Part shown: piece after piece, positions 1-58,843 of the stretch
Layout of the letters: the number at the start of each line of letters is the position of its first letter
Numbering within the stretch: position 1 is the first letter of the stretch
DNA from: Woeseiaceae bacterium
GTDB taxonomy: Bacteria; Pseudomonadota; Gammaproteobacteria; Steroidobacterales; Woeseiaceae
Assembly (NCBI GenBank): GCA_028279985.1
Contig: JANQMR010000011.1
Coordinates: 186,001 to 250,000 of the forward strand
Reading direction: 5' to 3'
Length of the DNA stretch: 64,000 nt
Notes under the pieces: model-generated
Database searches by the model: none
Seen by the model: the letters and a program-made list of their open reading frames with translations, nothing else
What the model was told of the DNA's origin: nothing
Program-made: the position numbers and the translations under genes

Positions 1-975
1 CTTGCAATTGGCGCCAACACAATGACGGTTGGCGAATTTGTCCTTGTCAACGCGTACATGCTACAGATGATCCGGCTTCTAGAAACTATTGGCGTTGGAG
101 TACGCGACTCCGCGCAGGGCTTCGCATTCATTGAGAAGATGACTAGCTTGCTCAAGCAACGGAGTGAAAACTTGACTGCGGCTGGAAAGACTCTACCCGC
201 GGACTCACCTGTCAGTCTCGTTTTTGACGATGTAAGCTTCTCGTATGGGGATGGAGTGAATATCCTTAGTAACGTTAGCTTCTCTGTGAAGCCCGGTAAT
301 ACCGTCGCTATCGTGGGTCAAAGTGGCTGCGGGAAATCGTCATTGATTCGTCTACTCGTCCGACTTTATGATCCGGACAGTGGGGAGATTCTCCTAAACG
401 ATACAGCAATTTCGCAGATATCCCTCTCGAATCTCCGCAGATCGATCGCCGTCGTCCCCCAAGACCCAGTGCTATTCCATGACTCCATTGCGTACAACAT
501 CGGTTTTGGCCAGAAGGGGCTATCGGAAGATATCCGGCACGCGGCGCGTCTTGCTGACCTTCACAAGTTGGTGGACCGGTTCTCGGAAGGATTCGGCACG
601 ATAGTAGGTGAGCGGGGCCTAAAACTCTCTGGAGGGGAGAAACAGCGTGTGGCAATTGCTCGGGCCGTTTTGAAGAATCCGCAACTGTTTGTTTTTGATG
701 AGGCGACATCGTCTTTGGATTCCGAGACCGAATTGAGGATACTCCGAAATCTGAGAGAAATCTCGCGAGAGAGGACAACTCTTATAGTTGCTCACCGACT
801 GTCAACAGTTGTTCATGCCGACGATATTATCGTCTTGAGGTGCGGCAAAGTTGTTGAACGAGGTAGCCACCGAATGTTGATGGCGCAGGATGGTCACTAC
901 GCCGCCATGTGGCAAACACAACGGCGAGAGGAGTTGCTTCAGCGTCAACAGCATGATGCGATGACGGCAGCCTAA
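1..975 (+). CDS. ABC exporter, C-terminal part (truncated by window edge)
   Basis: The frame is open from base 1, so the gene begins outside the window. What is visible is the end of a transmembrane region followed by a full nucleotide-binding domain: Walker A GQSGCGKSS (about nt 316-342), signature LSGGEKQRVAIARA, Walker B LFVFDEATSSLD and the H-loop AHRLST. This is the fused TMD-NBD type used for peptide or lipid export. It converges on the isopeptidase gene 243 bp away, so it is plausibly the exporter (McjD-like role) of a lasso cluster whose precursor and maturation genes lie to the left; that is inference from context. Base composition is lower in GC than most of the window. Other Atm1/MsbA-like exporters remain possible. 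Confidence 0.85.
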   Translation, partial: LAIGANTMTVGEFVLVNAYMLQMIRLLETIGVGVRDSAQGFAFIEKMTSLLKQRSENLTAAGKTLPADSPVSLVFDDVSFSYGDGVNILSNVSFSVKPGNTVAIVGQSGCGKSSLIRLLVRLYDPDSGEILLNDTAISQISLSNLRRSIAVVPQDPVLFHDSIAYNIGFGQKGLSEDIRHAARLADLHKLVDRFSEGFGTIVGERGLKLSGGEKQRVAIARAVLKNPQLFVFDEATSSLDSETELRILRNLREISRERTTLIVAHRLSTVVHADDIIVLRCGKVVERGSHRMLMAQDGHYAAMWQTQRREELLQRQQHDAMTAA

Positions 976-1217: not shown

Positions 1218-3410
1218 CTAGTTCTCGTTAATGGCCCTAATCGTGCTTGAGCTTGCACGTTGTTGTGATCGCATATCACGCCAGCGAGCGTATTGCATAG
1301 GATCCAGCGGATCTTGGTCCTCGATTCCTTGGAGCCAGAACTTGAGCCACTGCAGATTGCGGCGATAGATATTGTACCGGTGCCTTGGTTGCATCTTGAC
1401 GTGTTTCTCATCGGGGAACACGTACATCTCAAAGGGCTTGTGAGCCTCTCGCATCGCCGCAAGTGTTTCCAAGGCGATTAGATACTCGCTATCGGAAGCC
1501 TGCAACAGTAGTGGTGTCTTTATCACGTCGATGTTGGACGAAACAGCATGATTGGCCCACCGGCCGGCAGCGTTGCGGGCGGGGTGTCCATAGCCGAAGG
1601 ATCTCAGCCGGTCCTGTTTCTTAATCCCGCCTAAGTAATATAGAAGAGGCTCCCGCGATGGACTACTAATTGCCGCCGCCGCAAATCGATTCGACCGAGT
1701 AATGCTATAGAGAGTCAATTCTGACCCCAGACTTAACCCAGTTATAGCAATACGGTGCGGATCGACCAGGCCCTTCCTAATCAGCATATCAATTGCTACA
1801 TCCAGACTGGACTTAATCCGCTTGTGCATTCGATCGTTTTTCCGTAGCGCACGGTCAATGTCTTCGCTGCTGGTGGCCGTCGCGTAGAGCGTCCAATCAC
1901 TAGGCTGGTCAAAATCCAATACGGCGAAGCCGTTGGCCGAAAAGACCTGGATTGGATATTCATCCCCTACGGCACCCCGGAGAAACCCTCGAGAATAATA
2001 CGTAGTAATGACTAGCGGATAGAGCCTCTCCGAGTCGTAGTTCAGCGGTAAGACGAGATGCCCAAATGCCTCCTCGTCGTATTCGTTACTCTTCCAAGTA
2101 ATTTTGGATGTAACACCCTTTTCAAGGTGCTGAAATTCCGGATTGGCGTCTACTAGAGTGGTTAGTTGGCCGGTAGATAGGTTAACCGACACCAATCTCC
2201 GGGGAGTCAATGCCGATTCGTGAAAGCAAACGAGTCCACTAGTTGCATTGGCACAGCTCTGCAGATCATCGTCAGTACGCAATATCAGTCGGACTGTGCC
2301 TGTCTCAGGTGTCCATGCGTATAAACCCTGGCTGGAGTTTTCGACGCCTTCACGACGTAAGAAATACACGTCAGACGCCTGTGGCGCTATCCAGACCCCT
2401 CGAATTTGGCCTTTGCACAGCGGCTTCCCGCACTTAAATGTGCGTCCAGATCCCAATTCTCGTGCAGCATAGAGAGACATCTGAGGATACGGCGCCTCTT
2501 CGTACTCAAGTTGCGTTGGTTCGGTCCAGGCTACTGTGTCGGTCACCGGCGAATGAGCGACCACTCTCGCATATGGATAGCTGGTTAACTTGGGTGCGGT
2601 CTTAGCCTCATAAATAAGTGCCTCGTCGTTGGTTGCAGCCCGCTCTTCACCGGTTCGCAAGTGCACAACCAAGATCGAAGGCTCTGATGATGCAAGAACA
2701 CTCGGACGCCAAACGGGTTTGGAACTGTAATACGGTATATACCGGTCGTCGACTAGATAACCTCGCTCACCCTCCTCCAACAGCTCCTCTTCGATACGGG
2801 GCCGTGATTCGTCAACAGTGAAGTATATTTTGGATCCGTCGTCCGACCATGCAAAGTCGGCTACGTCGTTCCTGTTGTGCGTAATCTGCTCTTGCGCGCG
2901 GCCGTCAGCAGCGCTTCGCCATATCTGCAATCCCGATTCATCTCGCACCAAGTAAGCCAGCCACTGGCCGTTTGGAGACCATCTCGGCGGGCGCACAGCC
3001 GATGTACCATTCTGAATACCGTCAGCGCCGACGGGCCAAACGGGTTTACCGCCATCCCCAACGTTCGTAGCAGAATTGGGCCGAGACGTGGATGTAACAT
3101 ACCAAGCGAGTTCGTAGCTATTCGTAGCGAGATTTGCCCTTTGTAGCTGAAATGCGGCATAGCGACCGTCAGGGGAGATACTGAGGCCGCGCATATCCCG
3201 CAGATGTAGAAGGTCGAATGCGGTGACAGGCCGCGCAGATTGATCAACCGCAGTCGGAATCTCGACCCCGGCAGTTGCCGGCGACCCGAAGGCAAGCAGA
3301 ACCACCGAACCAAATACCCGGATTGCAGCAATAGTCGACGACAAAGCTACTGAGGCTCTTCTTGGCGATAATTGCTTCTCGACGCGACGTGGCCTTTTGC
3401 AGATCACCAT
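1218..3410 (-). CDS. Lasso peptide isopeptidase (Atxe2-like, S9 family)
   Basis: 730-aa serine hydrolase of the prolyl-oligopeptidase type. The N-terminus has a secretion-type hydrophobic stretch (about residues 24-48), residues ~60-430 look like a beta-propeller (SPDGRYAAF, SPNGQWLAYL repeats) and residues ~440-695 are the alpha/beta-hydrolase. The catalytic triad is visible: Ser560 in GLSLGSE, Asp640 in LLLQASDSEY and His670 in FPDEKHVKMQPRHR. Isopeptidases of this family cleave the Gly-Asp/Glu isopeptide bond of threaded lasso peptides and linearise them. The start overlaps the stop of the upstream TonB receptor gene by 7 nt, suggesting translational coupling. The receptor/FecR/sigma context is characteristic of isopeptidase-type lasso clusters. 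A general dipeptidyl-peptidase is the alternative, less likely given the neighbours. Confidence 0.88.
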   Translation of the reverse strand: MVICKRPRRVEKQLSPRRASVALSSTIAAIRVFGSVVLLAFGSPATAGVEIPTAVDQSARPVTAFDLLHLRDMRGLSISPDGRYAAFQLQRANLATNSYELAWYVTSTSRPNSATNVGDGGKPVWPVGADGIQNGTSAVRPPRWSPNGQWLAYLVRDESGLQIWRSAADGRAQEQITHNRNDVADFAWSDDGSKIYFTVDESRPRIEEELLEEGERGYLVDDRYIPYYSSKPVWRPSVLASSEPSILVVHLRTGEERAATNDEALIYEAKTAPKLTSYPYARVVAHSPVTDTVAWTEPTQLEYEEAPYPQMSLYAARELGSGRTFKCGKPLCKGQIRGVWIAPQASDVYFLRREGVENSSQGLYAWTPETGTVRLILRTDDDLQSCANATSGLVCFHESALTPRRLVSVNLSTGQLTTLVDANPEFQHLEKGVTSKITWKSNEYDEEAFGHLVLPLNYDSERLYPLVITTYYSRGFLRGAVGDEYPIQVFSANGFAVLDFDQPSDWTLYATATSSEDIDRALRKNDRMHKRIKSSLDVAIDMLIRKGLVDPHRIAITGLSLGSELTLYSITRSNRFAAAAISSPSREPLLYYLGGIKKQDRLRSFGYGHPARNAAGRWANHAVSSNIDVIKTPLLLQASDSEYLIALETLAAMREAHKPFEMYVFPDEKHVKMQPRHRYNIYRRNLQWLKFWLQGIEDQDPLDPMQYARWRDMRSQQRASSSTIRAINEN

Positions 3411-6400
3411 CTCTTTGTAAGCTGCAAAGCGAGAACACGCCCGCGAGCGTTCGCGTTCTCTGGATCATAGCCCACTCGGAGTATCTGGTTGTTCACGAAC
3501 GGCGGGGGCCGGTCAAAGACATTCTGGGCGCTAAGGGCCACCGTTACATTGTTTGACCACCACGTTGCTCGATCAGCAAATTGGTAACGAACACTGAGGT
3601 CCGCTGTTGTCCAAGACGAGACACGTTGTTGTGGATCACTATCGTCGTTGATATAACTGTCTACATAGTTTACAAATGTGGCTATTCCCCATCCTCGTTG
3701 GTTCCAAGACACTTCGCCCCGGGCACGCCAAGTTACCGGATGATTCACCGTGCCCAACACGTCGTTCTTGGCAGCGGTCTCCGATATTGCATCTTCGAAT
3801 GTAAAGAAGTAGCTTGCATTAGCGGCGACGTTGAATTGGCCTGCTGCCGTATCCCAGCCGGCTTGAAAACCTAGATCCAAGCCGCTGATTTTGGTAACCG
3901 AGACGTTGTTGAGACGGAAATCGATAATCGCCTCGACCTCATTCGGAGTCAGGCCAAGGCTATTGGAAAATCTCGAGTTAGCGAAAAAGTTGGAAACTTG
4001 ACGCGAATCACAAGGACACCTTGTAATGACGGGCGCATACACGTCCTCTTGTTCAAGGACGATAAACACGGCGTCTTGAAGATCTGCAATCTTATCTTTG
4101 ATATCGATATCGAAGTATGTCAGTTCCAAGGAGACATCACGCCCCTCTGGTTTAAGATCTAGCCCGAACGTGAAGGTTTCCGCTTCCTCTGGCTGCAGCT
4201 CGGGGTTATTGCCACGCAGTACGAGGGAGTCTGTGAATCCAGTAGCTGAGGTGGGATCTGCGATGGCGAAGGTAAAGAAGATGCGATCATCCTCTGCATC
4301 GACCAGTTGTTCGAGCAGCGGTGCCTTGAATGATTCGCTAAATGTTGCGCGGATATTGAAGCCCGGCGCCGGACTCCAACGAATGCCTATCTTCGGGTTG
4401 GTCGTTGTACCAAAGTCGCTATAATCCTCAAAACGTGCCGCTAAGGAAACCTCAAGAGCCTCAAGCCCCGGTCGACGATTCTCATTTGAAACGAATGGCA
4501 AGTACAGCTCGGCGAATGCCGCCGAAACACTTCGGCCGTTAACAATGGACTCTCGATTCACCGGCGCAGGAGTGTTCGTGAACAATACGCCGACGTTTTC
4601 AATATCTTCCTCGCGATACTCTGCACCAATCGCGAGTTTCGCCGGTCCCCCACCAGCACGGAAGACAGAGCCGTCCGTCACTACTCTCAAGCTATTCACC
4701 TGGGCCTCAACATCGCGTGTAGAGAAACCTAACATCGACTGAAGTGTGGCTGGATTGGTATGGGAACCATCGCCAAATGGGTTGAACACCGTCGAGGGGT
4801 CCAGGTCCGCAAGAGCGACGTTTCGAGCCAACCGGTTGACGATTTCGGAGTTATTGGATGTTGTATCTTTTGAGAACGTTCCGGATAAAGTTGCCTGCCA
4901 CGACTCTGATATATCCGTCGTGGCCCCTATGGTACCGGCGATCAACGCCGCCTCAGCATTGGCGCCGAGAGAGCCGTAGTCGTCCGCATAAGAGTAGCGC
5001 AGTTGGAGGTCTTGCGAGCCGCCAAACGGATCCACAAAGAATGGATGGGATGATGGCACTGTAAGCGTATGTCGTGATGTTCCAAAGCTATACTCAGCAT
5101 CACGCTTGCTATAGAGTACTTCTGCAAAGCCTTCTACAGTTGCAGTCAGCCGCTGCCCGAAAGTCAAGAATGCCGAATGCCGTTTCTGCCCCGGCATGAT
5201 ATATCGATAACCTTGGAAATCTTGAAGGTTCTGACCAACGACGAGATCGGCTGGGTCCAGCGCCGTCCCGTCCTGAGCTGTCGGGATGACGAATTGAACT
5301 GACTGTCGGGTGCCATCAGCAAGCGTATAGCGTGTAATGTTGCCCGGATTGTTCCAGAACCCCCGAAAGTCATCTCCGCCAAATGGAGTGAGGTCGTTTC
5401 TGTAGTAGTCTCGGTAGAACCCTTGCAGTGGATCTCGATCAAGGAACTCGTAATTCAGCATTACGTAGCCGGACTTCCAAGACTTGCCGAGTGTCTGTAC
5501 GAATTGAAACTCGTTGACGTCGTTGCCCGTATCTGGCGCTGTCCGAAGGCGCGTTTCGGCGCCATCAAAATCTTTGCGCAATACGACGTTTACCACGCCA
5601 CCTATCGCATCGGACCCGTAGATCGCCGAGGCACCATCTGTTAGCACTTCCATCCGCTCTACGGCCGACAGCGGAAACTGGGATAGGTCAACGAATGTAC
5701 CGCGCCCACTCGGTGCAACACGGCGCCCGTTCAATAGTACCAACGTAGAATCGGCCCCGAGCCCTCGAAGATTCACGCCACTTCCTTTGCCCTGGTTGAG
5801 GTCTCCTTTTGCGTTAAAGGAGCCCAGGGTGCTTTCGGTAGGCCCGGCGCCGAAGTATTGCGGGACCGTCTGCAGCACTTCTTGGGTTGTCGACAGGCCG
5901 GTCTTGTCGATTTCGAAGCGATCTATAACAAGGACATTGGCACCGACAGCACCGGCCCCTCGAATATGTGTCCCTGTGACCACGATCTCTTCGAGTTCCC
6001 GCTCCACTTCTCCTATTTTCTCGCGGTCGTCGTCGACCGAGAGCTTCGCCCCCGGGATAGTAGTCGATGCTTGCGTCGCTGCAAGCATGGAGGTTGGCGT
6101 CAGCCGCAAGCTGGTGGTTTCTGCTACGGCTGCTGGCGGCTCGTCAACTCCACCGGTTCGGTGTGGCTTCGGAGTTCGCCGAATGACTAGCCCCCTTTCC
6201 CCAAGTTCAGCTTCCAAGCCGGTACCGTCGAGTAGCAGTTCCAGGGCATGATTATTCTCGTACTCGCCTACCACGGCATTCGTGACAACGTCGTCCGCTA
6301 CCTCTGCTGCAAAACCGAGCTGAACCCGCGCCTGCCGCGCGTAAAGCGTCAACGATTTCTTCGCGGGCTGTGCCTCTATGTGGAACATCGTCTTCTTCGT

Positions 6401-6538
6401 TTCGGCACCTGCTACGGCGAATGACATACCGAAAGCGACAATGGACAGAAGGATGATTTGGAACCACGTAAAGCGACCGCTTCGCCTACTCAGGTTTTCT
6501 TTGGCGCAAACTGAACCAAGTTTGGTGTACTCAGACAT
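3404..6538 (-). CDS. TonB-dependent receptor with STN signalling domain (lasso locus 1)
   Basis: 1044 aa outer-membrane receptor. It has an N-terminal membrane-spanning export signal (about residues 24-45), an STN domain at ~50-120 (FHIEAQPAKKSLTLYARQA), a TonB-box-like EIVVTGTHI near 188, a plug (about 200-310: VLQTVPQYFG, GASAIYGSDAIGGVVNVVL) and a beta-barrel ending in aromatic KRW. The STN domain in FecA-type receptors contacts FecR in the periplasm. Co-transcription with FecR, sigma and the isopeptidase indicates that the ligand is probably a lasso peptide imported for cleavage; this is inference, and iron-siderophore uptake is the generic alternative. A 194-bp gap separates it from the FecR gene. 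Confidence 0.92.
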   Translation of the reverse strand: MSEYTKLGSVCAKENLSRRSGRFTWFQIILLSIVAFGMSFAVAGAETKKTMFHIEAQPAKKSLTLYARQARVQLGFAAEVADDVVTNAVVGEYENNHALELLLDGTGLEAELGERGLVIRRTPKPHRTGGVDEPPAAVAETTSLRLTPTSMLAATQASTTIPGAKLSVDDDREKIGEVERELEEIVVTGTHIRGAGAVGANVLVIDRFEIDKTGLSTTQEVLQTVPQYFGAGPTESTLGSFNAKGDLNQGKGSGVNLRGLGADSTLVLLNGRRVAPSGRGTFVDLSQFPLSAVERMEVLTDGASAIYGSDAIGGVVNVVLRKDFDGAETRLRTAPDTGNDVNEFQFVQTLGKSWKSGYVMLNYEFLDRDPLQGFYRDYYRNDLTPFGGDDFRGFWNNPGNITRYTLADGTRQSVQFVIPTAQDGTALDPADLVVGQNLQDFQGYRYIMPGQKRHSAFLTFGQRLTATVEGFAEVLYSKRDAEYSFGTSRHTLTVPSSHPFFVDPFGGSQDLQLRYSYADDYGSLGANAEAALIAGTIGATTDISESWQATLSGTFSKDTTSNNSEIVNRLARNVALADLDPSTVFNPFGDGSHTNPATLQSMLGFSTRDVEAQVNSLRVVTDGSVFRAGGGPAKLAIGAEYREEDIENVGVLFTNTPAPVNRESIVNGRSVSAAFAELYLPFVSNENRRPGLEALEVSLAARFEDYSDFGTTTNPKIGIRWSPAPGFNIRATFSESFKAPLLEQLVDAEDDRIFFTFAIADPTSATGFTDSLVLRGNNPELQPEEAETFTFGLDLKPEGRDVSLELTYFDIDIKDKIADLQDAVFIVLEQEDVYAPVITRCPCDSRQVSNFFANSRFSNSLGLTPNEVEAIIDFRLNNVSVTKISGLDLGFQAGWDTAAGQFNVAANASYFFTFEDAISETAAKNDVLGTVNHPVTWRARGEVSWNQRGWGIATFVNYVDSYINDDSDPQQRVSSWTTADLSVRYQFADRATWWSNNVTVALSAQNVFDRPPPFVNNQILRVGYDPENANARGRVLALQLTKRW

Positions 6539-6732: not shown

Positions 6733-7797
6733 CTAGTCGATTCGAATCGGCGGGGCCGCGGTAAGGTAAATGGTGTCTGGTACGTCTCGATTCACGGCAA
6801 TGTCCAGGCCCACCTCGAAGAACTCCAGGACCGCTTCCAGATCATCGGAACGGAAAGCGCCGCCGACACGCAAATGTTTCAATTCGCTATCCACAATGAT
6901 CAAGCGTTTGTCGGTATAGCGCTCGACTTCCTGCAAGACTTCGTCGAGCGATTGATCCTCGAATATCAGGAGACCTTGCCGCCAGGCAAGGTCGCGATCC
7001 AACTGGGCTGGCGCTACCACCGCGAGATTGGCACCACGGCGATCGTATTCGACCCGTTGGCCTTTACCGAGTTTTGCGGCTGGCGCCAGATTGGCTCCGC
7101 TGCCTCGGTCAGGAGTCTCTTGGACGACGTAAGCGTCGCGTACGACTTCCACGACGCCCTCCGTTACCGTCACTTTGACGACTTCTTCTTGTACGCGTAC
7201 GACGAAGCCGGTGCCCACCGCACGTATCGAAGCCGCGCCGGCTTCGACTACGAACGGGCGGCCGGCGTCGCCCGCAACATCGAAATAGGCTTCGCCGCGG
7301 CGCAATTCAACGGCTCGAACGTCGTTGGAGTAGTCGACCAGAATTTCCGTATTCGTGTTGAGCTGCACCGTGGATCGGTCCGGTAAAGTGAACGTCGATT
7401 GTTGGCCGACCGCCGTTCGATACAAGTCGCCCTTTAGATAAAGTGGATGCAAGAGCAACCCGCCGGCAATGACGGCAACAACCGCTGCCGCAGACATCCA
7501 CCTGACTCGAATTCGCGCGGAAGCTGTGATTTCCGACCGCCCGCTGGAGTCGGTACCAGCGACCGAATGGAGATCACGGGCCTCGGCGCGCCGGGATTGT
7601 GCTCCCAGAGCCACAAGCCAGCTTCTGGTGTTTTCCATTGCATCGAAGGCGGCTTTGTGACGGGGATCCTCCACCAGCCAGGCATCGCAGCGTGCGCGGT
7701 CTTCCGCGGATACGCTTCCGGACGCCAACAACGACACCCACTCACTCGCCTGTCGAGCCCTGTCCTTGACGTCTCGGATGTCGCACACCTTACTCAT
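6733..7797 (-). CDS. FecR-type anti-sigma/transmembrane signal protein (lasso locus 1)
   Basis: 354 aa. The N-terminal cytoplasmic part (RARQASEWVSLLASG...DAWLVEDPRHKAAFDAME) is the usual DUF4880/FecR N-terminal region. One transmembrane helix follows (AAAVVAVIAGGLLLHPLYL), then the periplasmic FecR domain (TAVGQQSTFTLPDRSTVQLN; ELRRGEAYFDV) and a C-terminal STN-contacting region. It relays receptor occupancy to the sigma factor. I chose the ATG at 7797 because it overlaps the sigma stop by 4 nt (ATGA); the frame stays open 17 codons further upstream but that extension is arginine-rich and unlike FecR. Confidence 0.9.
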   Translation of the reverse strand: MSKVCDIRDVKDRARQASEWVSLLASGSVSAEDRARCDAWLVEDPRHKAAFDAMENTRSWLVALGAQSRRAEARDLHSVAGTDSSGRSEITASARIRVRWMSAAAVVAVIAGGLLLHPLYLKGDLYRTAVGQQSTFTLPDRSTVQLNTNTEILVDYSNDVRAVELRRGEAYFDVAGDAGRPFVVEAGAASIRAVGTGFVVRVQEEVVKVTVTEGVVEVVRDAYVVQETPDRGSGANLAPAAKLGKGQRVEYDRRGANLAVVAPAQLDRDLAWRQGLLIFEDQSLDEVLQEVERYTDKRLIIVDSELKHLRVGGAFRSDDLEAVLEFFEVGLDIAVNRDVPDTIYLTAAPPIRID

Positions 7798-8372
7798 GTG
7801 CCCTGCTCTCGGCCGCGCTCGCGTACGGTCACACCGCCATCGAGGCATGCCTTTTCCGCGGCGGCCTGCGATCTTACCTCATGGAGCACCTCGAGGACCC
7901 TTGCCATCTCGCGATGTACAGTTGCGTTGGACACATTCAGCTTGTCAGCCGCTTCCTGGTACGTGAAACCGAGAAATGCGTAAAGGGTTAGAACTTCGTT
8001 CTGTCGTTCTGTGAGGCGATCCATGGCCTTGCCCAGAACCTCGAATTTCTCCGCCGTCATCGCTTCCTGCTCGACAGACGCCCGTTCGTCGAGAACGGCC
8101 GCGACTTCGTCCATGGGCTCGGTGTGCGTAACGCAATGTCGCTTTTTGTTGTTGATCGCCAGGTTTCGCGCGGTGGTGAACAGATAACCGTTTGAGGGGC
8201 GACCCTGGTCGAATTTCGACGCCGTATACACATTCAGAAACGCGTCGTGCGCGAGGTCCTCGGCAACCTGTTCCGAGCGAACGATTCTGAACAGGAATTT
8301 TCTCAGCTCGCCCAGACACTCGGCGTAAGTGGTTTCCAGCCAGTTATCGATGCGGCTTCTTTTGCGCGACAT
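7794..8372 (-). CDS. ECF sigma factor, FecI-like (lasso locus 1)
   Basis: 192 aa with both sigma-70 regions. Region 2 spans about residues 20-85 (FLFRIVRSEQVAEDLAHDAFLNVYTA...GYLFTTARNLAINNKKR) and region 4 about 120-165 (RLTERQNEVLTLYAFLGFTYQEAADKLNVSNATVHREMARV). It heads the run sigma-FecR-receptor-isopeptidase and is expected to redirect RNA polymerase to this operon when the receptor signals. Start: ATG at 8372 preceded by GATAAGG; the 15-bp repeats described separately begin 5 bp upstream. Confidence 0.93.
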   Translation of the reverse strand: MSRKRSRIDNWLETTYAECLGELRKFLFRIVRSEQVAEDLAHDAFLNVYTASKFDQGRPSNGYLFTTARNLAINNKKRHCVTHTEPMDEVAAVLDERASVEQEAMTAEKFEVLGKAMDRLTERQNEVLTLYAFLGFTYQEAADKLNVSNATVHREMARVLEVLHEVRSQAAAEKACLDGGVTVRERGREQGT

Positions 8373-8377
8373 CCTTA

Positions 8378-8435
8378 TCTTCTCGGCGCGTGTCTTCTCA
8401 GCGCGTATCTTCTCTGGGCGTATTCTCAGCGCGAC
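8378..8435. repeat. 15-bp tandem repeat, about 4 copies, at sigma start
   Basis: Units TCTTCTCGGCGCGTG, TCTTCTCAGCGCGTA and TCTTCTCTGGGCGTA, then a shortened fourth copy. Read on the sigma strand each unit contains GAGAAGA, a purine run close to the sigma ribosome-binding region, so copy number could change the leader. Confidence 0.8.
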
Positions 8436-8745
8436 TACCGGGCGCTTGCAGGCACGCTCGCTTTTTGTTTCATGTCCTTGCAGTGATCGATCGACGGAAC
8501 GGCAGAACGTCCTTCATCGCAACGTACTTCATCCGCTTTCATGGGATTATTGATGTTAATGACCCTCGCGGATCCGTTGCAGCCCCCGAATTTTCCCCGA
8601 ACGACCAAAAACGACCAAGAACGACGATTGCCTGTGTTGCTAACCAACGTCCCGTAGTGACGTTGGTGGCGTCATCCGCATAGCCGTCTACCCACATATG
8701 GTATTGCTCCGAATACGGAGCATATCAACTCGAACGACGTAACGC

Positions 8746-8774
8746 TACTTTTAGTCCGTAGACTCATAGTCATC
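8746..8774 (+). promoter_or_regulatory. C-box-like operator, copy A
   Basis: TACTTTTAGTCCGTAGACT followed by CATAGTCATC. It matches the site at 17032-17060 at 26 of 29 positions. The AGTC-CGTA-GACT core and flanking AGTC/GACT half-sites resemble controller-protein (C-box) operators of restriction-modification systems as I remember them. It lies 374 bp upstream of the sigma start and 186 bp past the LuxR stop. Confidence 0.6.
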
Positions 8775-8901
8775 GTTCTACGAACTCAGCGGCAGCGGCT
8801 CATAGCAACGAGAAACGGCTGATATTGAATGGTCCGGCCGGTTTTTCTACCCAACTTGCGTAGCGCAACCGGAACCTCGGCAAAACCCGGCGCCGAGCCG
8901 C

Positions 8902-8940
8902 GATCGGGACCGGGATCGGGATCGGGATCGGGATCGGGAT
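8902..8940. repeat. GATCGG hexanucleotide repeat, 6.5 copies
   Basis: Tandem GATCGG with one variant (GACCGG) just downstream of the LuxR stop codon. It is non-coding on the LuxR strand. No function is evident. Confidence 0.85.
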
Positions 8941-8959
8941 TCCGGCAGCAAATCGTCTA

Positions 8960-9685
8960 TCAATCGATAAGCCCGTAACGAATCGCCTTGACCACGGCCA
9001 TAACCCGTGTGTTCGCGCCGAGCTTGTGCAGCGCATTCTTGAAGTAATAGTTGACGGCGTTGTAGCTGATTTTCAGGATCCCTCCGATCTCCTGCGACGA
9101 TTTGCCGCGGGCAGCCAGCCGCAAGCACTGGCGTTCGCGCATCGACAACGGGACACCATTCCACCGTTCAATCTCCGACCGGCCGATGGCGCCGTACGCC
9201 GAATGAAACCGGCCCGCCAAAAACTCCAGTTTCGGGAACTCGGCGATCGGGTCGGGATGACCGTCGCCGGCGGCAAACGTCACGAGACAGACACTGCCGC
9301 GCGGACCGTGCAGCGGAACGGCTACGCCGTCTCGGAGCCCGAAGTCACGGGCCTGACGCAGTACCGTACGTTGCTCGGGTTCCAGATGGTAGGAATCGTT
9401 CAGGCTATCCCACAAGAACGGATGCTCGATTTCGGGCGCAAGCAGTAGCACCGGGTCGATGTTCTGGTAACCGTGTTCGAAGTAGTAGTCGTGCCACGCC
9501 GCGGGGAAATTGTGTGCGACCGTCGGCGGCGGATTCTCGCCGGCCTCGTACCGGTCGTGGCCGGTCAGCGCGCAATAGGCAAACTTGTCGAACCCCAGGT
9601 CGGTTGCGGCGCGCTCCATTAGCGCGAGAACGGATTGGGTCGAGTCGGCCTCGCCGAACTCTTGGACGAAATCGGGCAATCGCAT
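8960..9685 (-). CDS. LuxR-family regulator (solo)
   Basis: 241 aa. Residues ~15-165 fit an autoinducer-binding domain (GFDKFAYCAL, AAWHDYYFEHGYQNIDPVL, FGLRDGVAVPLHGPRG). Residues ~178-240 are a GerE/LuxR helix-turn-helix (LSMRERQCLRLAARGKSSQEIGGILKISYNAVNYYFKNALHKLG). No luxI-type synthase is in the window, so it is a solo. It is divergent from the lasso precursor gene with a 515-bp gap that contains a perfect palindrome placed like an activator site; it is therefore the obvious candidate regulator of the precursor (inference). Confidence 0.9.
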   Translation of the reverse strand: MRLPDFVQEFGEADSTQSVLALMERAATDLGFDKFAYCALTGHDRYEAGENPPPTVAHNFPAAWHDYYFEHGYQNIDPVLLLAPEIEHPFLWDSLNDSYHLEPEQRTVLRQARDFGLRDGVAVPLHGPRGSVCLVTFAAGDGHPDPIAEFPKLEFLAGRFHSAYGAIGRSEIERWNGVPLSMRERQCLRLAARGKSSQEIGGILKISYNAVNYYFKNALHKLGANTRVMAVVKAIRYGLID

Positions 9686-10077
9686 GGCGATACTCCAATT
9701 CCTGCCGGATCGGGGTACGGGATATGATGCCCATTTTCCGGATTTATTCCAGCGCCAATAGTCTGTCTACACGGCTCGGCCGACTCCGGAAACCGAACCG
9801 GTAAGGCCTGCGCGATTCGGCAACACTCCATCCGGCCCGGCGTCGTCCTTGCGTTGGGCGCAAAGCGCAGGCGACAACTCGATGACCCGTCGGCAATCGG
9901 GGCGCGGTCGGTACAAACCCGTGCCGTACTGTCGCAGTGTCGCGACAGATCTTGGCCGGAAGGTCACGGGATGGACAGCGATGGCAATCTCATCAGTGAA
10001 ACCGCGTAACTGAATCGTGATTCCAGATTCAGATCCACCGCACTGCAAGTGGAAGACGACAGCGCGTCGGGCATTCC

Positions 10078-10105
10078 CACGCCAGAATAGATCTATTCTG
10101 GCGTG
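10078..10105. promoter_or_regulatory. 28-bp perfect palindrome, candidate LuxR-type operator
   Basis: The 14-bp half CACGCCAGAATAGA is followed immediately by its exact reverse complement, with no spacer and no T-run, so an operator fits better than a terminator. The inner ~20 bp (CCAGAATAGATCTATTCTGG) has the length and symmetry of lux boxes. Its centre lies about 64 bp before the predicted transcription start, a class-I activator position. Confidence 0.75.
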
Positions 10106-10119
10106 AAAAATCGCTGAGT

Positions 10120-10148
10120 TTGACCTGCTGCTTCGCGAGCCCTAGATT
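10120..10148 (+). promoter_or_regulatory. Predicted promoter of the lasso precursor
   Basis: -35 TTGACC (10120-10125), 17-bp spacer, -10 TAGATT (10143-10148). The likely start near 10155 gives a leader of about 45 nt with AAGGAG before the precursor ATG. Confidence 0.6.
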
Positions 10149-10200
10149 CTATTCGGCGAAGATGTGCCGCTAATCCACCACTGCATTGAAGGAGCGAGTC

Positions 10201-10356
10201 ATGGACAAACAGCATTCCGAAGAGAACGATAGCGCCGTCAATGACGAGATTCTGATGGAACTCGGTGCGGTTTCAAAGGAGACCAAGGGCATCATCGGAG
10301 GCATGTGGGAAACCGATGTCTCTCTTGACCTCAAGGGTTATCCGGCCAAGTCTTGA
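10201..10356 (+). CDS. Lasso peptide precursor (A protein)
   Basis: 51 aa, too short for routine gene calling. The leader ends with LMELGAVSKETK, matching the proteobacterial lasso pattern (LGxxSxETK/R before the core Gly, with the conserved Thr at the penultimate leader position). Cleavage after Lys29 would leave a 22-residue core beginning G-I-I-G-G-M-W-E-T-D, with Gly1 and Glu8 placed for an 8-membered macrolactam ring; Asp10 is a less likely acceptor. The tail contains K16, G17, Y18 and P19 and ends in S22. Start: ATG with AAGGAG 6 nt upstream, a good promoter and a terminator right after the gene. The next gene is a lasso cyclase, which strongly supports the call. Ring size is predicted, not shown. 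Confidence 0.88.
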   Translation: MDKQHSEENDSAVNDEILMELGAVSKETKGIIGGMWETDVSLDLKGYPAKS

Positions 10357-10415
10357 GATTGTGCAAGCGCTGCCGAGCTTGCCGATAACAAACACCAATT
10401 CGCTCCGTGGGCATT

Positions 10416-10444
10416 TGCGTGGCTGGCAGGCCACGCAACTTTTT
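10416..10444 (+). terminator. Intrinsic terminator between lasso precursor and cyclase
   Basis: TGCGTGGC-TGGCAG-GCCACGCA perfect 8-bp stem followed by AAC and TTTTT. Placement between the precursor and the enzyme gene would favour a short abundant precursor transcript with partial read-through. Confidence 0.8.
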
Positions 10445-10529
10445 GAGCACGGCCTATGGAGGAGCCCGGTAATACCATTCCCGGACACGGGTTGAAGACG
10501 GTACGCTCCGCCGCGTCGTCCATACGAGC

Positions 10530-12356
10530 ATGTATCGTTTTGTTGCTATCTGCTGGGACGCGAGGGATCCGGGAAAATCGGCTACGGCTAAAGGGTTGAG
10601 CCGTCGCCTTCTGGCAAGCTCTACGGACATGGCGTGCGTGCTCGACGTTTCGGGGCTTTGCGTCTTTCACTCGCCTCATCGCGGCGGAGCCCGTCGCGCC
10701 TATATGCTCGAGAACAAGGCCGGCGTCGTCCTGGGCCGCCTGTTCGAGCGTAACGCCGGACACGACACATCCGGTCCGGTCTTCGACCCAGTGTTCGACG
10801 ATGGTGAAACCGAACGGGTCGTCCGTTCGCGAGGGCGCCGCCTAGTCGAACGGTACTGGGGGCATTACGTTGCTTTCCTGCAGTCCGGCGACGGGCAGGA
10901 ACAGTACGTATTGAGGGATCCGACCGGCGGCCTGCCCTGTTTCCGACTGGATGCAGGCGGTATCGAGGTCATCGTGTCCGACATGGAAGACTACGTTCGC
11001 CTCGATCTGGCACGGTTTTCAATCAATTGGCAGCATGTCACGGCATTTTTTCATCACGTCCGGCTGGTCACGGAAGCAACGGGATTCAACGAGGTGGCGC
11101 AGCTTAACGCGGGAGAGTGCCTCGCCATTGCCAACAACGGAAAAACGCGATCAAGCTACTGGGATCCCGTCGCCGTATGCAAAGCGAACGTCATCGAAGA
11201 TCCGGAGCGCGCGAGATCGAGTTTAAGGGACGAGATCCAGGCCTGCATCAACGCTTGGGCTTCCTGCTACCAGGGCGTCGTGCTCGAACTGTCGGGCGGA
11301 CTCGACTCCAGCGTCGTCGCCGCCTGCCTTGCGAAGGCAAATTCGTCTCCGAAGGTACTTTGTGTGAACTTTTACTCGGAGGATGCAGAAGGCGACGAGC
11401 GTCCGTTCGCGAGGGCGGCCGCGCGCCGCACAGGCTTCGGGCTCGTCGAATCACAACTGGACGCCACGGGTGAGTCGCTAGAAGGTCAACTCGACAAATC
11501 GAGGCTCCCCACGCCGGCGGTGCTGGGACTGGTCGGCAAAGCGACGTCGCACAGGGCGCGGCTCGTGGCCGATGAACGGGCCGGCGCCGTCTTTACCGGC
11601 CGCGGCGGCGACCAGCTATTTCAACATGACAACGGCGATCACGTCGCGGCAGAGTTTGCCCATCGTCACGGTCTGCGGCCGAAACTGTTCGAAATCATCG
11701 TCGACACCGCACGCGCGACCCGGCGCTCGATCTGGTCTGTCCTCGCCGCGGCGCTGCGTGACGGTGTGTTCAAGCGGGCGCACGATCCTTACGCAGAGTT
11801 CGAAACGCCGCCGATCCTCACCGACACAGCGGAAGCCGCACTCGAATCCGGGGCTTATCGGCATGCGTGGGTTGACGGCGCAGCGGGTTTGCCAGCCAGC
11901 AAGATCCGGCAGATCTTCCACGTTGTAGACTGCCAGCCCTTCCACCAACTGCCGTACCCGTACGCAGAGCTCGTGCATCCGCTGGTTTCGCAGCCGGTCA
12001 TCGAGCGCTGTCTTCAGGTCCCGGGCTACGTCCTGGCTCGCCGTGGCGTGGGCCGTGCCCTGCTCCGCGAAGCCTTCGGGGACGATTTGCCCGCCGAGAT
12101 AGCCAACCGGCAGTCGAAAGGGGGAACCACCACGCATCTCATCCGGACAATGCTGGCGAACCGCACATTCATGCGGGAATTCCTGCTCGACGGCACACTG
12201 GTTCGCGAGGGCATCCTCGACCGGGCCGCACTCGAGAAACGGTTGAGCGAGCGAGCACTGGTACTCGGCGTTGATACCGCTTCGATCCTGAAAGCCACAA
12301 GGGCCGAGGCATGGCTGCGGAACTGGGCGGATGTCGATCGCCACACGGCAGCCTAG
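10530..12356 (+). CDS. Lasso peptide cyclase (C protein, asparagine-synthetase-like)
   Basis: 608 aa. An N-terminal class-II glutaminase-like fold (MYRFVAICWDA...) lacks the catalytic Cys at position 2, as in lasso cyclases. The C-terminal ATP-pyrophosphatase domain has the PP-loop LSGGLDSS (residues 254-261) and GRGGDQLF (357-364). Lasso C proteins adenylate the ring Asp/Glu and close the isopeptide bond. The frame is open only back to 10473 and contains no earlier ATG, so the start at 10530 is firm. It follows the precursor by 173 bp including a terminator. No B gene (RRE and transglutaminase-like protease) follows; the next gene is convergent. A true asparagine synthetase is unlikely given the missing Cys and the precursor. 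Confidence 0.9.
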   Translation: MYRFVAICWDARDPGKSATAKGLSRRLLASSTDMACVLDVSGLCVFHSPHRGGARRAYMLENKAGVVLGRLFERNAGHDTSGPVFDPVFDDGETERVVRSRGRRLVERYWGHYVAFLQSGDGQEQYVLRDPTGGLPCFRLDAGGIEVIVSDMEDYVRLDLARFSINWQHVTAFFHHVRLVTEATGFNEVAQLNAGECLAIANNGKTRSSYWDPVAVCKANVIEDPERARSSLRDEIQACINAWASCYQGVVLELSGGLDSSVVAACLAKANSSPKVLCVNFYSEDAEGDERPFARAAARRTGFGLVESQLDATGESLEGQLDKSRLPTPAVLGLVGKATSHRARLVADERAGAVFTGRGGDQLFQHDNGDHVAAEFAHRHGLRPKLFEIIVDTARATRRSIWSVLAAALRDGVFKRAHDPYAEFETPPILTDTAEAALESGAYRHAWVDGAAGLPASKIRQIFHVVDCQPFHQLPYPYAELVHPLVSQPVIERCLQVPGYVLARRGVGRALLREAFGDDLPAEIANRQSKGGTTTHLIRTMLANRTFMREFLLDGTLVREGILDRAALEKRLSERALVLGVDTASILKATRAEAWLRNWADVDRHTAA

Positions 12357-12386
12357 TCGTGGATCTGGGTCTGCCGACAGGCCCTT

Positions 12387-12418
12387 GGGAGCCTCTGTAT
12401 AAGTCTGACGAGGCTCCC
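12387..12418. terminator. Hairpin between convergent cyclase and TonB receptor genes
   Basis: GGGAGCCTC and GAGGCTCCC form a 9-bp perfect stem around a 14-nt loop. There is no strong T-run on either side, so it is a possible bidirectional terminator. Confidence 0.5.
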
Positions 12419-12426
12419 TAGCTTCA

Positions 12427-15400
12427 TCACCAGTCGATCTTCGCCTGGAGTGAAACGAAGCGACCGCGACCGTCGGCATTGGTACTGTCGTAGCCCAGAC
12501 CGCCGATTGTGTCGGCAAATGGCGGATCCTCGTCGAACAGATTCTCGACGGCAAATCGGATCCGGGCGGCGCCCAACACACCGTTGGTGAAGTCGGAATC
12601 GAAAGACACCGACAGATCCACCGTGGCCCAAGAATCGATGGGCCGGGGTGGCTCGCTCACGTTGTCGGTATACCGGTCGGTGTAGTTCACGAATCCCGAA
12701 AGCTCCCACCCACCGCGCCGCCACGTAACGCTACACCGTGCCCGGAACTCCACCGGCCTGCCCAGCGTGTCTATCTCTTCGGTCAGCGAATCGGCGTCGA
12801 TCAGGGCCTGTTCGAAGTCGAAAACGTAACTGCCGCTCAGCCCGAGCTCGATCGGCCCGAAGGCCGTTTGCAGCTCGTGTAACAACGACAGGTCGACGCC
12901 GCGTACGACCGAAGTCGCTGTATTGTTGACCCTGCCGTTACTGATCCCGCCGACTGGAGCGGCACCCGACAGAAGATCGGCGGCGGGCACGCCGAAACGT
13001 TCTTGCCAGCGCGGATCGTTGACGAGGTCGGCAATCTGTTGCGGCGTCGGATCGGTATCCAGCAATGAGGCAAATCTCGGGTCAAAAGCGCTCTGCAGAT
13101 CGGTAAATGGCGTTTCGATGCGGTTCTCGAAATCGATGCTGAAATAGCTCACGTCCAGGGACAAACCGCCGACGTGTGCGGGAGTCCAGTGGAAACCCAC
13201 GGACCAGCTCGTTGCCTCCTCCGCCTCGAGATTCTCGTTGCCGCCGGTCAGCAAGATTGTCGGAAACGGAACAATTCCGCCATTCACGAAAGACTGCGGA
13301 AAATAAACGATGGTGTTGGTGGCAAGATTACCGACGTCGAGCTCCGACAGGCCCGGCGCCTTGAAGGAAGTCCCGTAGCTGCCACGCAGAAACAGACTTC
13401 GCGTCGGCGACCAGGAAATGCCGAACTGCGGATTCGTGTTGCTGCCGAAGTCGCTGTAGTCTTCGATGCGAGCCGCCAGCGTGAGATCGAGTTGCCGGAT
13501 GCCCGGCCGGTGATTGTCGGCGCCGACCAGCGGAACGGACAGCTCCGCATACGCGGAGATTATATCGCGGCTACCGTCGGTGCCTCGTTCCATTAGTACT
13601 GCGTCGAGTTCGGCACCGACTACCGAGTAAGCCAACAGCGATTCGCCGCGGAGCTCGGCGCCGGAGGCGAGCCGGACCGTGCCACCCGGCAGGCCGAAAG
13701 TGTCGAGGTTGAGGTTGAAGCCGAATGTCCAGAGCTCGTTTTCGGCGCTGTCCATGTTCCCGTCCGTTCGCAGGGACTGCAGCACTGCGGGATTCGTATT
13801 GGAACCTTCGGCGAAGGGATTCAAGGCTGTTGCCGCGGTCTTGCCGTTCGCCGCGACGGCAACAGCCATCCGACTCACGAGGTTGGTCAAGGTGGAAGTC
13901 GATTCCTCTCTCGAGTAGGTGGTTACCAACTCGCCTCGCCCACGGCGGCCGATATCGAAGCGCAGCCCAACCGCAGCGCCATAGGTATCGCTCTCGCCCC
14001 GGTTGACGATCGGGCCAAGATCGTCTCTCAACGAGTAGTTCTCGACCGTAACCGAACTCAGGCCCGTACCCGTGGGATCGACGAAAAAGGGATTGGTGTC
14101 CGGCACCTCGATATCCAGTAGCTTCCGGTCGGATCGTGCCGTATTCCGGCGCGTCGAAAACCGAGCCTCGGCAAACAACTCCGATGTGGCCGAAACGTCT
14201 TTTGCGAACGCAAGAAAGAGACCGTGCCGTTCCTGCTCGGGAAGAAAATCCTCACCGGCCCTGATATCGTGCCGGTTCAACGAAGCCGTGGGAACGCCGT
14301 TCGAGTCCACCGGAAAATCGGCCACCGTCAACGACGTGCCGTCCTGCGCGGCAGGAATGGCATAGGTTAAGCCGCCCGCAGAGATATTGGCCGGATTGCC
14401 GCCGGTTACCCGCCAGTCGGTTCCGCCGAGCGACGAGAGATCGGAGCTTGCAGCGAAACGCCGATCGGCGTTGGCGAGTTCGTCGTGACGATAATACTCG
14501 TAGGCGGCGAAGAGCCTGCCGCCGTCCCAGGTTTCGCCGAAGACCTGCCCGAACAAGAGCTCCGAGGTATCGCCTTTGCCGTCCCGGCCGTATCGGAGCT
14601 CCGTCTCTGCACCCTCGTAGTCGTCGCGAAGAATGAAATTCACGACACCGGCAATGGCATCGGCGCCGTAGATAGCCGACGCTCCGTCGGTCAGCAACTC
14701 GACCCGCTCGATTGCCGGCAGCGGAATGGCCGAGATGTCGAAGAAACGGGCACTGAGCCCGCTGGCATTGATACGCCGGCCGTTCAGCAGCACGAGCGTT
14801 GCGCCGGCGCCCAGACCGCGCAGGTTCACCGACGCGCCTCCCGCCAACTGGCCGACGTTGGCGCCTATCGCATTCGACGCGCCGCGCAGGCTCGTGAAGC
14901 TGTCCTGCGTCGCGCCCGACCCGAAGTTCTGCGGCACGCTTTGAACCAGGGCTTCCAGCGTCGTATATCCCGCCCGGTCGATCTCGTGACGGGTGATCGT
15001 GACGACCGGCGCTCTGCTCCCCGCACCGTGAATTCTCGAGCCGGTGACCAGTATGTCCTCGACGACACCCGGCGTACCGTCCGAATCGCCGCTTGGCGGC
15101 GCGCGCGCCCCCGGCCCGGCGACCGCTGCGGGCTCGGGCGATGTCACGACCCGCAGTTTGACGCCGAATTCAGGCGAATGGCGTGCCGCGAGCCCCGTTT
15201 GTGCAAGTAGCAGGTCCAGGGCCTGTTGCGTCGAGTAAGTACCGAAAACCGCGTTTGCCCTGACCGCTTCGAATTCGTCGGAAATGAAAAAGAGCTGCAC
15301 TCGCGCCTGTCTTGCGAACTCGCTGAGCGCGGCGGGCACGGGCAGGCTGGGGATATGAAACTCGATCGGCGTGTCTTGCCCGGCGCTCTCGTCGGCCAAG

Positions 15401-15510
15401 GTACGAGGGGCGACCAGCGATGCCGTCAACTGGAGCAACAAGACGAGCGACGCCCGATTGCCGCAGCCTTTCGAGTTGAACGATCCGACCGTCCGGCGCG
15501 GACGCTTCAT
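12427..15510 (-). CDS. TonB-dependent receptor with STN domain (lasso locus 2)
   Basis: 1027 aa. N-terminal export signal (LVLLLQLTASLVAPRTLA), STN domain ~45-115 (IEFHIPSLPVPAALSEFARQARVQLFF), TonB-box-like EDILVTGSRIHG near 150, plug (~160-290: GASAIYGADAIAGVVNFIL) and a barrel ending in KIDW. It is similar in architecture to the receptor at 3404-6538 (shared phrases such as NPFFVDP, LTLAARIEDYSDFGS/T and IGISWSP-type strands), so the two are probably paralogues serving two lasso peptides. It is convergent with the lasso cyclase gene and followed upstream by FecR. Confidence 0.92.
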   Translation of the reverse strand: MKRPRRTVGSFNSKGCGNRASLVLLLQLTASLVAPRTLADESAGQDTPIEFHIPSLPVPAALSEFARQARVQLFFISDEFEAVRANAVFGTYSTQQALDLLLAQTGLAARHSPEFGVKLRVVTSPEPAAVAGPGARAPPSGDSDGTPGVVEDILVTGSRIHGAGSRAPVVTITRHEIDRAGYTTLEALVQSVPQNFGSGATQDSFTSLRGASNAIGANVGQLAGGASVNLRGLGAGATLVLLNGRRINASGLSARFFDISAIPLPAIERVELLTDGASAIYGADAIAGVVNFILRDDYEGAETELRYGRDGKGDTSELLFGQVFGETWDGGRLFAAYEYYRHDELANADRRFAASSDLSSLGGTDWRVTGGNPANISAGGLTYAIPAAQDGTSLTVADFPVDSNGVPTASLNRHDIRAGEDFLPEQERHGLFLAFAKDVSATSELFAEARFSTRRNTARSDRKLLDIEVPDTNPFFVDPTGTGLSSVTVENYSLRDDLGPIVNRGESDTYGAAVGLRFDIGRRGRGELVTTYSREESTSTLTNLVSRMAVAVAANGKTAATALNPFAEGSNTNPAVLQSLRTDGNMDSAENELWTFGFNLNLDTFGLPGGTVRLASGAELRGESLLAYSVVGAELDAVLMERGTDGSRDIISAYAELSVPLVGADNHRPGIRQLDLTLAARIEDYSDFGSNTNPQFGISWSPTRSLFLRGSYGTSFKAPGLSELDVGNLATNTIVYFPQSFVNGGIVPFPTILLTGGNENLEAEEATSWSVGFHWTPAHVGGLSLDVSYFSIDFENRIETPFTDLQSAFDPRFASLLDTDPTPQQIADLVNDPRWQERFGVPAADLLSGAAPVGGISNGRVNNTATSVVRGVDLSLLHELQTAFGPIELGLSGSYVFDFEQALIDADSLTEEIDTLGRPVEFRARCSVTWRRGGWELSGFVNYTDRYTDNVSEPPRPIDSWATVDLSVSFDSDFTNGVLGAARIRFAVENLFDEDPPFADTIGGLGYDSTNADGRGRFVSLQAKIDW

Positions 15511-15624: not shown

Positions 15625-16677
15625 TCAGTCCCGGCGCGCGGTGATGTGGACCAGATCCGGCGTAATGCGGTTGACGGCGACGAGCTCGTTCGACTCGATC
15701 AGAGCCAGCAGGGTTTCGACGTCACCAGCCTTGAGATAGCCGGTGACGCTCAGGTTCGCGATTTCGGGATCCTCTATGGTCATGCGTATCGAGGTATACC
15801 GGCCGGCTTCCTCGATGACCGAAGCCAGGCTGTCTCCCTGAAAATCGAGCATCCCGTCCTGCCAGGCCAGCTTTCGTGAAATTTCGCCTGGATCCAATGT
15901 CGACCTGGACTCGATACCGTCACGGTACCGGATTCGCTCGCCGCGCGTCAGCGTCTGGGCAAGCGGCGGTGCGTCCGTTGCGGCGGTCGCCGCCGCGGAA
16001 CCAAGGCCATCGGCATTGTCCGCGTGAGCATTGCCCGCGTGCGGTAATACTTCAACGACACCTTCGGTAACCGTAACCTCGACGAGATCGCCTTTGACGA
16101 GAACGTTGAATGCCGTGCCCACCACCTCGACGGCGCCGGTACCGGCCTCGACCCTGAACGGCCGTTCCCGCGCGGGCTCGATCACGAAATGCGCCTCACC
16201 CCGGTGCAATTGCACGCGCCGGTATTCGTCCGTGTAAACCACGCTTGCTTCCGAGTCGGTGTTCAAGGTCAAGACCGACTCGTCCGGCAGCAGGATTTTG
16301 CGATGCTCGCCGACGGCGGTTCGATAACTCGCCTCGAATGCCGGTGAAGGCGGTAGAGACAGCGCGGCCGCAAGCGCCGCAATACCGGCGGCCGCCGCAA
16401 GCGGCAGATAACGGCGCTTGATACGCCGCCGCCGCAACCATTTGTCGATGATTTTGGGATCCGGTTCGCCGGATGCGAGTTGCTGGACGACGTCCAGCCT
16501 TCGCCAGTCCCGCTCGGCCTTCGTGAAAGCCCGGCGGTTTTCCGGCCGCGCGTCGAGCCAAGTTTGAAACTGCGCCCGCTCGACTTCGTTCAGATCGTCG
16601 AGATCGATCAGCCAGCGAAGCGCTTCCTCTTCAGCGCTCGTTTTGGCGGAGTCAACCGGACTGCTTGGATTGTTCAC
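15625..16677 (-). CDS. FecR-type signal protein (lasso locus 2)
   Basis: Cytoplasmic DUF4880-like start (EEEALRWLIDLDDLNEVERAQFQTWLDARPENRRAF), a transmembrane helix (LPLAAAAGIAALAAALSL), the FecR domain (TAVGEHRKILLPDESVLTLN; VQLHRGEAHFVIEP; VEVVGTAFNVLV) and a C-terminal domain (DSLASVIEEAGRYTSIRM). The start is uncertain: I used the GTG at 16677, about 350 aa; an ATG at 16839 would add 54 residues unlike FecR. It sits between the receptor and the sigma-region-4 gene, but a plus-strand XRE gene is inserted in that gap. Confidence 0.87.
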   Translation of the reverse strand: MNNPSSPVDSAKTSAEEEALRWLIDLDDLNEVERAQFQTWLDARPENRRAFTKAERDWRRLDVVQQLASGEPDPKIIDKWLRRRRIKRRYLPLAAAAGIAALAAALSLPPSPAFEASYRTAVGEHRKILLPDESVLTLNTDSEASVVYTDEYRRVQLHRGEAHFVIEPARERPFRVEAGTGAVEVVGTAFNVLVKGDLVEVTVTEGVVEVLPHAGNAHADNADGLGSAAATAATDAPPLAQTLTRGERIRYRDGIESRSTLDPGEISRKLAWQDGMLDFQGDSLASVIEEAGRYTSIRMTIEDPEIANLSVTGYLKAGDVETLLALIESNELVAVNRITPDLVHITARRD

Positions 16678-16850
16678 GTTGGACCATGAGCGCGATACCG
16701 AAGCGGTACCGCTCGTTCTACTCGTGTTTGTTGGAAAAGCGCGCTGCACTCGCCGTCCTATTTGCGATTGTAGGAAACTAATCAAACACTTGCATGCCCA
16801 ATTCGGCGCTTGCGGTCGATTGGGGCCGATAGAGACCATTTTCAGAAAAA

Positions 16851-17398: not shown

Positions 17399-17821
17399 TC
17401 AGCCGCCCGGGTTCGGCGGCAGCAGTGCACGCACCAACTCGAAACCCCTCATGACCCTGGATTTGGCAGTATCGAGCGATACGTCCAGGTCTTCGGCAAT
17501 CTGCTCGTAGGATCGCCCGTAGACTTTCTTGAGTACCAGCGCATCCCGGTAGTCGGACGGCAGACCGACGATTGCCTTGCATATAGGCAGGATGTCGGCG
17601 GAGCGGCGCGCCGCGATACCGCTTGGCGTCTCCAGGGCATGCTGTTTCGCCTTGTCCGATGCCTGACCGATCAGCGTACCCAACTCGGCAAGCCCTGCCG
17701 CCTTTGCTTCGCCCTCGAGGAAGTCCAGCGCGGCGGCAATCGATGCCACTGCCTGCTCGGGCGATTCCTCCGCAATGCGGGGTTCGGCCTTCATTCGACG
17801 GTGCTCGCGAAGGATGTTCAT
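17399..17821 (-). CDS. Sigma-70 region 4-type regulator (lasso locus 2)
   Basis: 140 aa. The C-terminal half is a sigma region 4 helix-turn-helix (LPSDYRDALVLKKVYGRSYEQIAEDLDVSLDTAKSRVMRGFELVR). The N-terminal half (AALDFLEGEAKAAGLAELGTLIGQASDKA) is helical and does not resemble sigma region 2. It occupies the position the complete ECF sigma has in locus 1, upstream of FecR and the receptor. Either it is a sigma factor that lost region 2, a different DNA-binding partner, or it needs another sigma for core binding. Start 17821 used; Met10 at 17794 is also possible. Confidence 0.7.
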   Translation of the reverse strand: MNILREHRRMKAEPRIAEESPEQAVASIAAALDFLEGEAKAAGLAELGTLIGQASDKAKQHALETPSGIAARRSADILPICKAIVGLPSDYRDALVLKKVYGRSYEQIAEDLDVSLDTAKSRVMRGFELVRALLPPNPGG

Positions 17822-18002: not shown

Positions 18003-18005
18003 GTT

Positions 18006-55164: not shown

Positions 55165-55167
55165 GAC

Positions 55168-55857: not shown

Positions 55858-55869
55858 CGCTCGACTTTC

Positions 55870-55912: not shown

Positions 55913-55918
55913 GGAGGC

Positions 55919-56146: not shown

Positions 56147-56147
56147 T

Positions 56148-58827: not shown

Positions 58828-58843
58828 GGCCTCCTATTCACAA

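Follow-up and report, generated by a model that had tools for sequence, protein, structure and literature searches.

A lasso peptide precursor with an adjacent cyclase, no adjacent leader peptidase and a divergent LuxR-type receptor in a Woeseiaceae bacterium

The window analyzed here, a stretch of 64,000 nucleotides from a marine-type Woeseiaceae bacterium that spans bases 186001-250000 of contig C21, harbors a short gene, A2, that encodes a predicted lasso peptide precursor of 51 amino acids plus stop on the forward strand (10201..10356). The leader (10201-10287, MDKQHSEENDSAVNDEILMELGAVSKETK) ends in LGAVSKETK and is followed by a core of 22 amino acids (10288-10353, GIIGGMWETDVSLDLKGYPAKS) and the stop codon (10354-10356). 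The ribosome-binding site AAGGAG (10189..10194, forward strand) belongs to a GGAG-N3-GTC-ATG pattern that was found in 11 of 19 precursors. As this pattern is common to the other precursor of the same genome and to nine of 17 precursors from relatives, it supports the start codon of A2. The first-pass annotation had described this frame, ribosome-binding site, leader end and core length, and all of them were borne out from the sequence. It had also assigned a promoter and a terminator to A2, of which the former stands as a consensus match. The sigma-70-like site TTGACC-17-TAGATT (10120..10148, forward strand) is a consensus match only, and a scan found two such sites on both strands together against a mean of 0.5 in shuffled sequences. 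The terminator-like hairpin between A2 and the cyclase gene (10415..10438, forward strand) has 10 pairs and a T run after it; one hairpin was found against 0.8 in shuffles, and with a fold z-score of -1.89 it was equalled by 9 of 200 shuffles. Thus, a terminator after A2 is plausible, although not clearly above chance.

The cyclase gene, C2 (10530..12356, forward strand), encodes a protein of 608 amino acids belonging to the asparagine-synthetase family (PF00733, E 1.8e-23). SGGLDS is found at 255, and C2 retains the conserved residue in 45 of 45 columns without variation among 17 other cyclases; of these, G105 lacks the exact SGGxDS string. This confirms the earlier claim of a cyclase gene adjoining A2. 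The NCBIfam cyclase model NF033561 gave 122 bits for C2, which is under its cut-off of 300, and a PDB sequence search with C2 returned nothing at E <= 0.001. Divergent from A2, a gene on the reverse strand (8960..9685) encodes a LuxR-type receptor in which a domain for autoinducer binding (PF03472, E 3.2e-35) is combined with an HTH (PF00196). A conserved non-coding element, which was aligned in six loci including the window, is positioned upstream of luxR (9724..9766). A perfect 28-bp palindrome, a candidate operator of LuxR or GntR type, is located at 10078..10105, its end lying 95 bases ahead of the start codon of A2.

Beyond luxR, the reverse strand encodes a lasso isopeptidase, an AtxE2-like S9 peptidase (1218..3410; PDB 5txc AtxE2, E 2.2e-104), a TonB-dependent receptor (3404..6538; PF00593, PF07715), a FecR-type regulator (6733..7848; PF04773) and an ECF-type sigma factor (7794..8372; PF04542, PF08281). 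Downstream of C2, also on the reverse strand, are a second TonB-dependent receptor (12427..15510; PF00593, PF07715), a second FecR-type regulator (15625..16839; PF04773) and a sigma region-4 protein (17399..17821; PF08281). Isopeptidase-bearing lasso loci often hold TonB receptors. The second receptor is a candidate receptor for the A2 product, and a similar gene with 47-53% identity is present beside five loci of the C2 clade. According to a passage of PMC13352647, lasso clusters with a neighbouring isopeptidase gene are known primarily from alpha-proteobacteria. A near-perfect palindrome of the window, GACTATTGTCTGTTCTGACAATAGTC (17977-18002), coincides with the start of a gene for an XRE-type HTH protein (17982-18254, PF01381). 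This operator-like sequence recurs in the loci L054, L055, L057, L058 and L059 (twice), and one half-site occurs in the conserved element upstream of luxR. The window further harbors contractile-injection-system genes (53443-60364), including baseplate V (PF04717), CIS tube (PF19266), tail tube gp19 (PF06841), sheath (PF17482) and Pvc16_N (PF14065).

A2 is only 51 amino acids long and scores below the cut-offs of the curated lasso models (Pfam Subterisin PF24178, 22.3 bits against 27; NCBIfam benenodin NF033522, 17.9 bits against 33), as might be expected if the frame were open by chance and happened to adjoin a cyclase-like gene. However, A2 ranked first (E 1.9e-7) when the whole 4.1-Mb genome was searched with a precursor profile from which both genes of this genome had been left out. 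A1, the precursor of a lasso cluster located upstream, ranked second (1.3e-5), and the third match (1.8) was noise. The profile comprised 17 precursors that share the same leader signature, lie near lasso genes and stem from nine other genomes (eight related genomes and Hyphomonas). In addition, A2 is encoded shortly before a lasso cyclase gene and in the correct orientation, it carries the ribosome-binding pattern of the family, and a chance frame is considered extremely improbable. Rows for class C beta-lactamases from NCBIfam were rejected as noise, with at most 17 bits against cut-offs of at least 415.

In the 17 aligned precursors the leader Leu-Gly, the Thr at position -2 and Gly1 of the core are invariant. 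A2 likewise contains Thr at -2 (...ETK/G), a leader feature of lasso precursors that is described in a passage of PMC12670498. All 17 relatives combine Gly1 with an acidic residue at core position 7, 8 or 9, which is position 8 in 13 of them. The A2 core contains Gly1, and Glu8 is the sole acidic residue among positions 7-9; its calculated monoisotopic masses are 2336.17 for the linear form and 2318.16 after loss of water. These residues support the lasso precursor with a predicted Gly1-Glu8 ring that had been proposed from the gene. The first-pass annotation had held that a lack of homologous precursors beside cyclases elsewhere would speak against it, and 17 such precursors were found in the nine other genomes. 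A ring closed by C2 on an unthreaded core, or through another residue, would give a branched cyclic peptide instead of a lasso. Threading cannot be read from sequence, and the acidic residue occupies position 7 or 9 rather than 8 in four of the 17 relatives. However, A2 offers no acidic residue other than Glu8 at these positions and the remaining components belong to lasso systems, which makes a branched product improbable. By the evidence of its genes, the predicted A2 peptide adds an ordinary new member to the lasso class.

Two features of A2 deviate from its relatives and count against this assignment. Its leader comprises 29 amino acids, whereas 16 of the 17 relatives have 12-18 and that of Hyphomonas has 27. 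A2 also contains no cysteine, whereas two are present in all nine precursors found at the eight other loci of the C2 clade. Exactly two cysteines occur in 10 of the 17 collected precursors, and cores of the form GCG...C, with Cys at positions 2 and 18, were observed at L054:8842-8934, L057:8760-8852, L059:13624-13716 and L062:3754-3846. Lasso peptides of this group may accordingly carry ring-tail or tail disulfides.

The cassette of A2 and C2 lacks an adjoining gene for the leader peptidase B, and a tblastn search that used 13 B and 8 GntR sequences as queries detected neither of the two in the window at E <= 0.01. Possible B or GntR remnants around A2 were dismissed as tblastn noise, as the best match within 8000-13000 had an E value of 0.15; the positive control, L057, gave 29 matches at 1e-3, with three queries stemming from L057 itself. 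The genome, 4.1 Mb on 40 contigs, contains two matches to PF13471, the family of B. About 13 kb upstream of A2 a complete lasso cluster was located, consisting of GntR, A1 (leader and core MNDQMTELGPVSEETK/GQGNDSAEEPSGKFGS), B1, C1 and the ABC transporter D, the C-terminal part of which extends into the window (22..975, forward strand; PF00005; whole gene L003:15167-16975). An intact orphan GntR-B pair was observed on another contig of the same genome (contig C25, L004:8568-9955), with neither cyclase nor precursor found beside it. Its B contains the Cys, His and Asp residues that are invariant in all 13 aligned B proteins, including both of this genome, and that could form a catalytic triad. 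A candidate cyclase remnant beside the orphan pair (best match query G209, E 2.4e-5, overlapping the B gene at its 3' end) was rejected because the query ORF is over-extended and matches there with no more than its first 74 residues. Weaker cyclase matches (W_C2, 0.005; G109c, 0.008) fall at other positions and were dismissed as noise. The B tree groups the orphan B with those of G148 and G209 (100/99). As the cyclases of these two genomes belong to another clade than C2, the orphan B is not claimed as the former partner of the cassette.

Cyclase matches at 1e-20 were obtained in nine of 107 family genomes. B is directly adjacent to 13 of these 19 matches and not adjacent to four; one further match starts 399 bases from a contig end and one is a fragment. 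The four cyclases without adjacent B are C2 itself, G117:C33:106935, G117:C5:33936 and G072:C22:52761. All of them fall into the ten-member clade of C2 (99/98), whose nine other members are 48-56% identical to C2; the trees comprised 18 cyclases and 13 B proteins, with G065 and the G072:C66 fragment left out. A decayed lasso remnant was also observed in G117 (L055:5785-6400), where a leader-like stretch that lacks a clear start codon occurs together with the first part of a cyclase frame. In each of the three genomes with B-less cyclases, B is encoded elsewhere. In the paeninodin system, according to a passage of PMC5067487, B2 was unable to cleave unless the leader was bound by B1. We therefore infer that a B probably acts in trans on A2. 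The repeated occurrence of cyclases without their own B suggests that several cyclases can naturally share a single leader peptidase, a property that would benefit combinatorial lasso design.

In relatives a common gene order is LuxR divergent from GntR-A-B-C, whereas LuxR of the window is divergent from A2-C2, and GntR and B are missing. This cassette could be degenerating, with A2 and C2 persisting after the loss of GntR and their own B, but without a mature peptide. A2 is alone in its cyclase clade without a cysteine pair, and the relative G117 contains the decayed A-C remnant. However, the ribosome-binding site, start, leader motif, Gly1 and Glu8 of A2 are intact, C2 is of full length with every invariant column kept, and B-less cyclases recur in two other genomes. 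Degeneration is therefore regarded as unlikely, though less so than a branched product.

The LuxR-type receptor of the window keeps the pocket residues W, Y, D, P, W and G, at the spacing known from TraR. LuxR orthologues at 1e-20 were present in nine of 107 family genomes, the same nine that hold the cyclase. This co-occurrence (Fisher 2.8e-13; 1.1e-9 among the 45 best genomes; both uncorrected for kinship) provides a concrete, testable link to cell-density signalling. In eight of the nine genomes, LuxR and a cyclase are no more than about 5.2 kb apart. LuxI is present in six, and in five of these it is located within about 6 kb of a cyclase, in the lasso locus. No match to LuxI (PF00765) was detected in the genome of the window, which is 96.55% complete, nor in G072 and G219. 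As its genome shows no LuxI match, the receptor of the window is regarded as a LuxR solo. However, its recognition helix differs from that of the orthologues, and in G109 both LuxR copies lie away from cyclases, one of them with LuxI and two GntR genes; both observations count against LuxR control of the lasso locus. The G109 group (L071:9003-12053) comprises LuxI, LuxR and the two GntR genes without B or cyclase, which indicates that the regulatory module can occur independently of lasso genes.

About 0.0005 perfect 28-bp palindromes like the one before A2 are expected per 64 kb, a figure that was counted after the sighting. The same TAGATCTA centre occurs in a perfect palindrome of 22 bp that is positioned ~200 bp before the GntR gene of the upstream cluster (L003:10659-10680). 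A central AGATCT is a feature of the TraR box and serves as a lead only; GntR would be a rival binder of the A2 palindrome. No match to this palindrome with up to four mismatches was found in the loci of relatives examined, which also counts against LuxR control, and the LuxR/GntR intergenic regions of six relatives contain imperfect palindromes only, with up to 8/10 pairs. In a genome-wide consensus search the two lasso-linked palindromes ranked best, which is circular because the consensus was made from both. Consensus matches genome-wide numbered 47 and 46, against more in the reversed control (100 and 110).

Taken together, A2 probably gives rise to a disulfide-free (class II) lasso peptide that is processed by B in trans, closed by C2 and possibly controlled by the LuxR solo. 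A B protein encoded elsewhere would bind the leader and cleave it behind ...ETK, most likely B1 of the upstream cluster, or otherwise the GntR-linked orphan B on another contig. C2 would then activate Glu8 and join it to the amine of Gly1, resulting in a threaded product with an 8-residue ring and a 14-residue tail at the water-loss mass given above. The upstream ABC transporter may serve for export, and the downstream TonB-FecR-sigma set may take up or sense the product. The divergent AHL-type LuxR, for which no synthase was found in the genome, probably controls the A2 locus. A broader scenario is put forward tentatively and appears less probable than not. In these Woeseiaceae, modular A-C cassettes might share B proteins encoded elsewhere, at loci tied to AHL quorum sensing, with LuxI-bearing relatives producing their own signal. 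The genome of the window might have lost LuxI, GntR and the cassette B, and might use its LuxR solo and a new operator to answer the signals of neighbours.

The earlier gene reading thus holds for a lasso precursor beside a cyclase, but it missed the absence of B from the cassette, the complete lasso cluster upstream, the AHL-type LuxR beside A2 and a core without the cysteine pair of the nearest cognate precursors. Within open-licence PMC, no paper was found on lasso clusters tied to LuxR/LuxI or on B proteins shared in trans. Lasso work on the host group Woeseiaceae was likewise not found there, and the sole paper containing both terms lists validated names. How lasso genes are controlled is poorly understood according to a passage of a 2019 review (PMC6963729), in which capistruin is tied to AHLs only indirectly, via ScmR. 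With the isopeptidase-type lasso peptides of proteobacteria (subterisin PF24178, benenodin NF033522, astexin/AtxE2), A2 shares Thr at -2, Gly1 and the acidic residue at position 8, together with an asparagine-synthetase-like cyclase and an AtxE2-like isopeptidase nearby. In contrast to these systems, A2 falls below the cut-offs of both precursor models, its core has no family match, the A2-C2 cassette lacks B, and the loci are linked to GntR, LuxR and ABC genes. The upstream cluster possesses the A, B, C and D gene set of ABC-transporter-type systems such as microcin J25 and capistruin, as described in a passage of PMC6963729. Unlike those, it also adjoins an isopeptidase, and the A2-C2 cassette lacks both B and D. 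The LuxR of the window shares the autoinducer-binding domain and the LuxR HTH with AHL receptors such as TraR and SdiA (71 bits to both models), but it is a solo linked to a lasso locus. The novelty is the wiring of the A2-C2 locus rather than the peptide chemistry.
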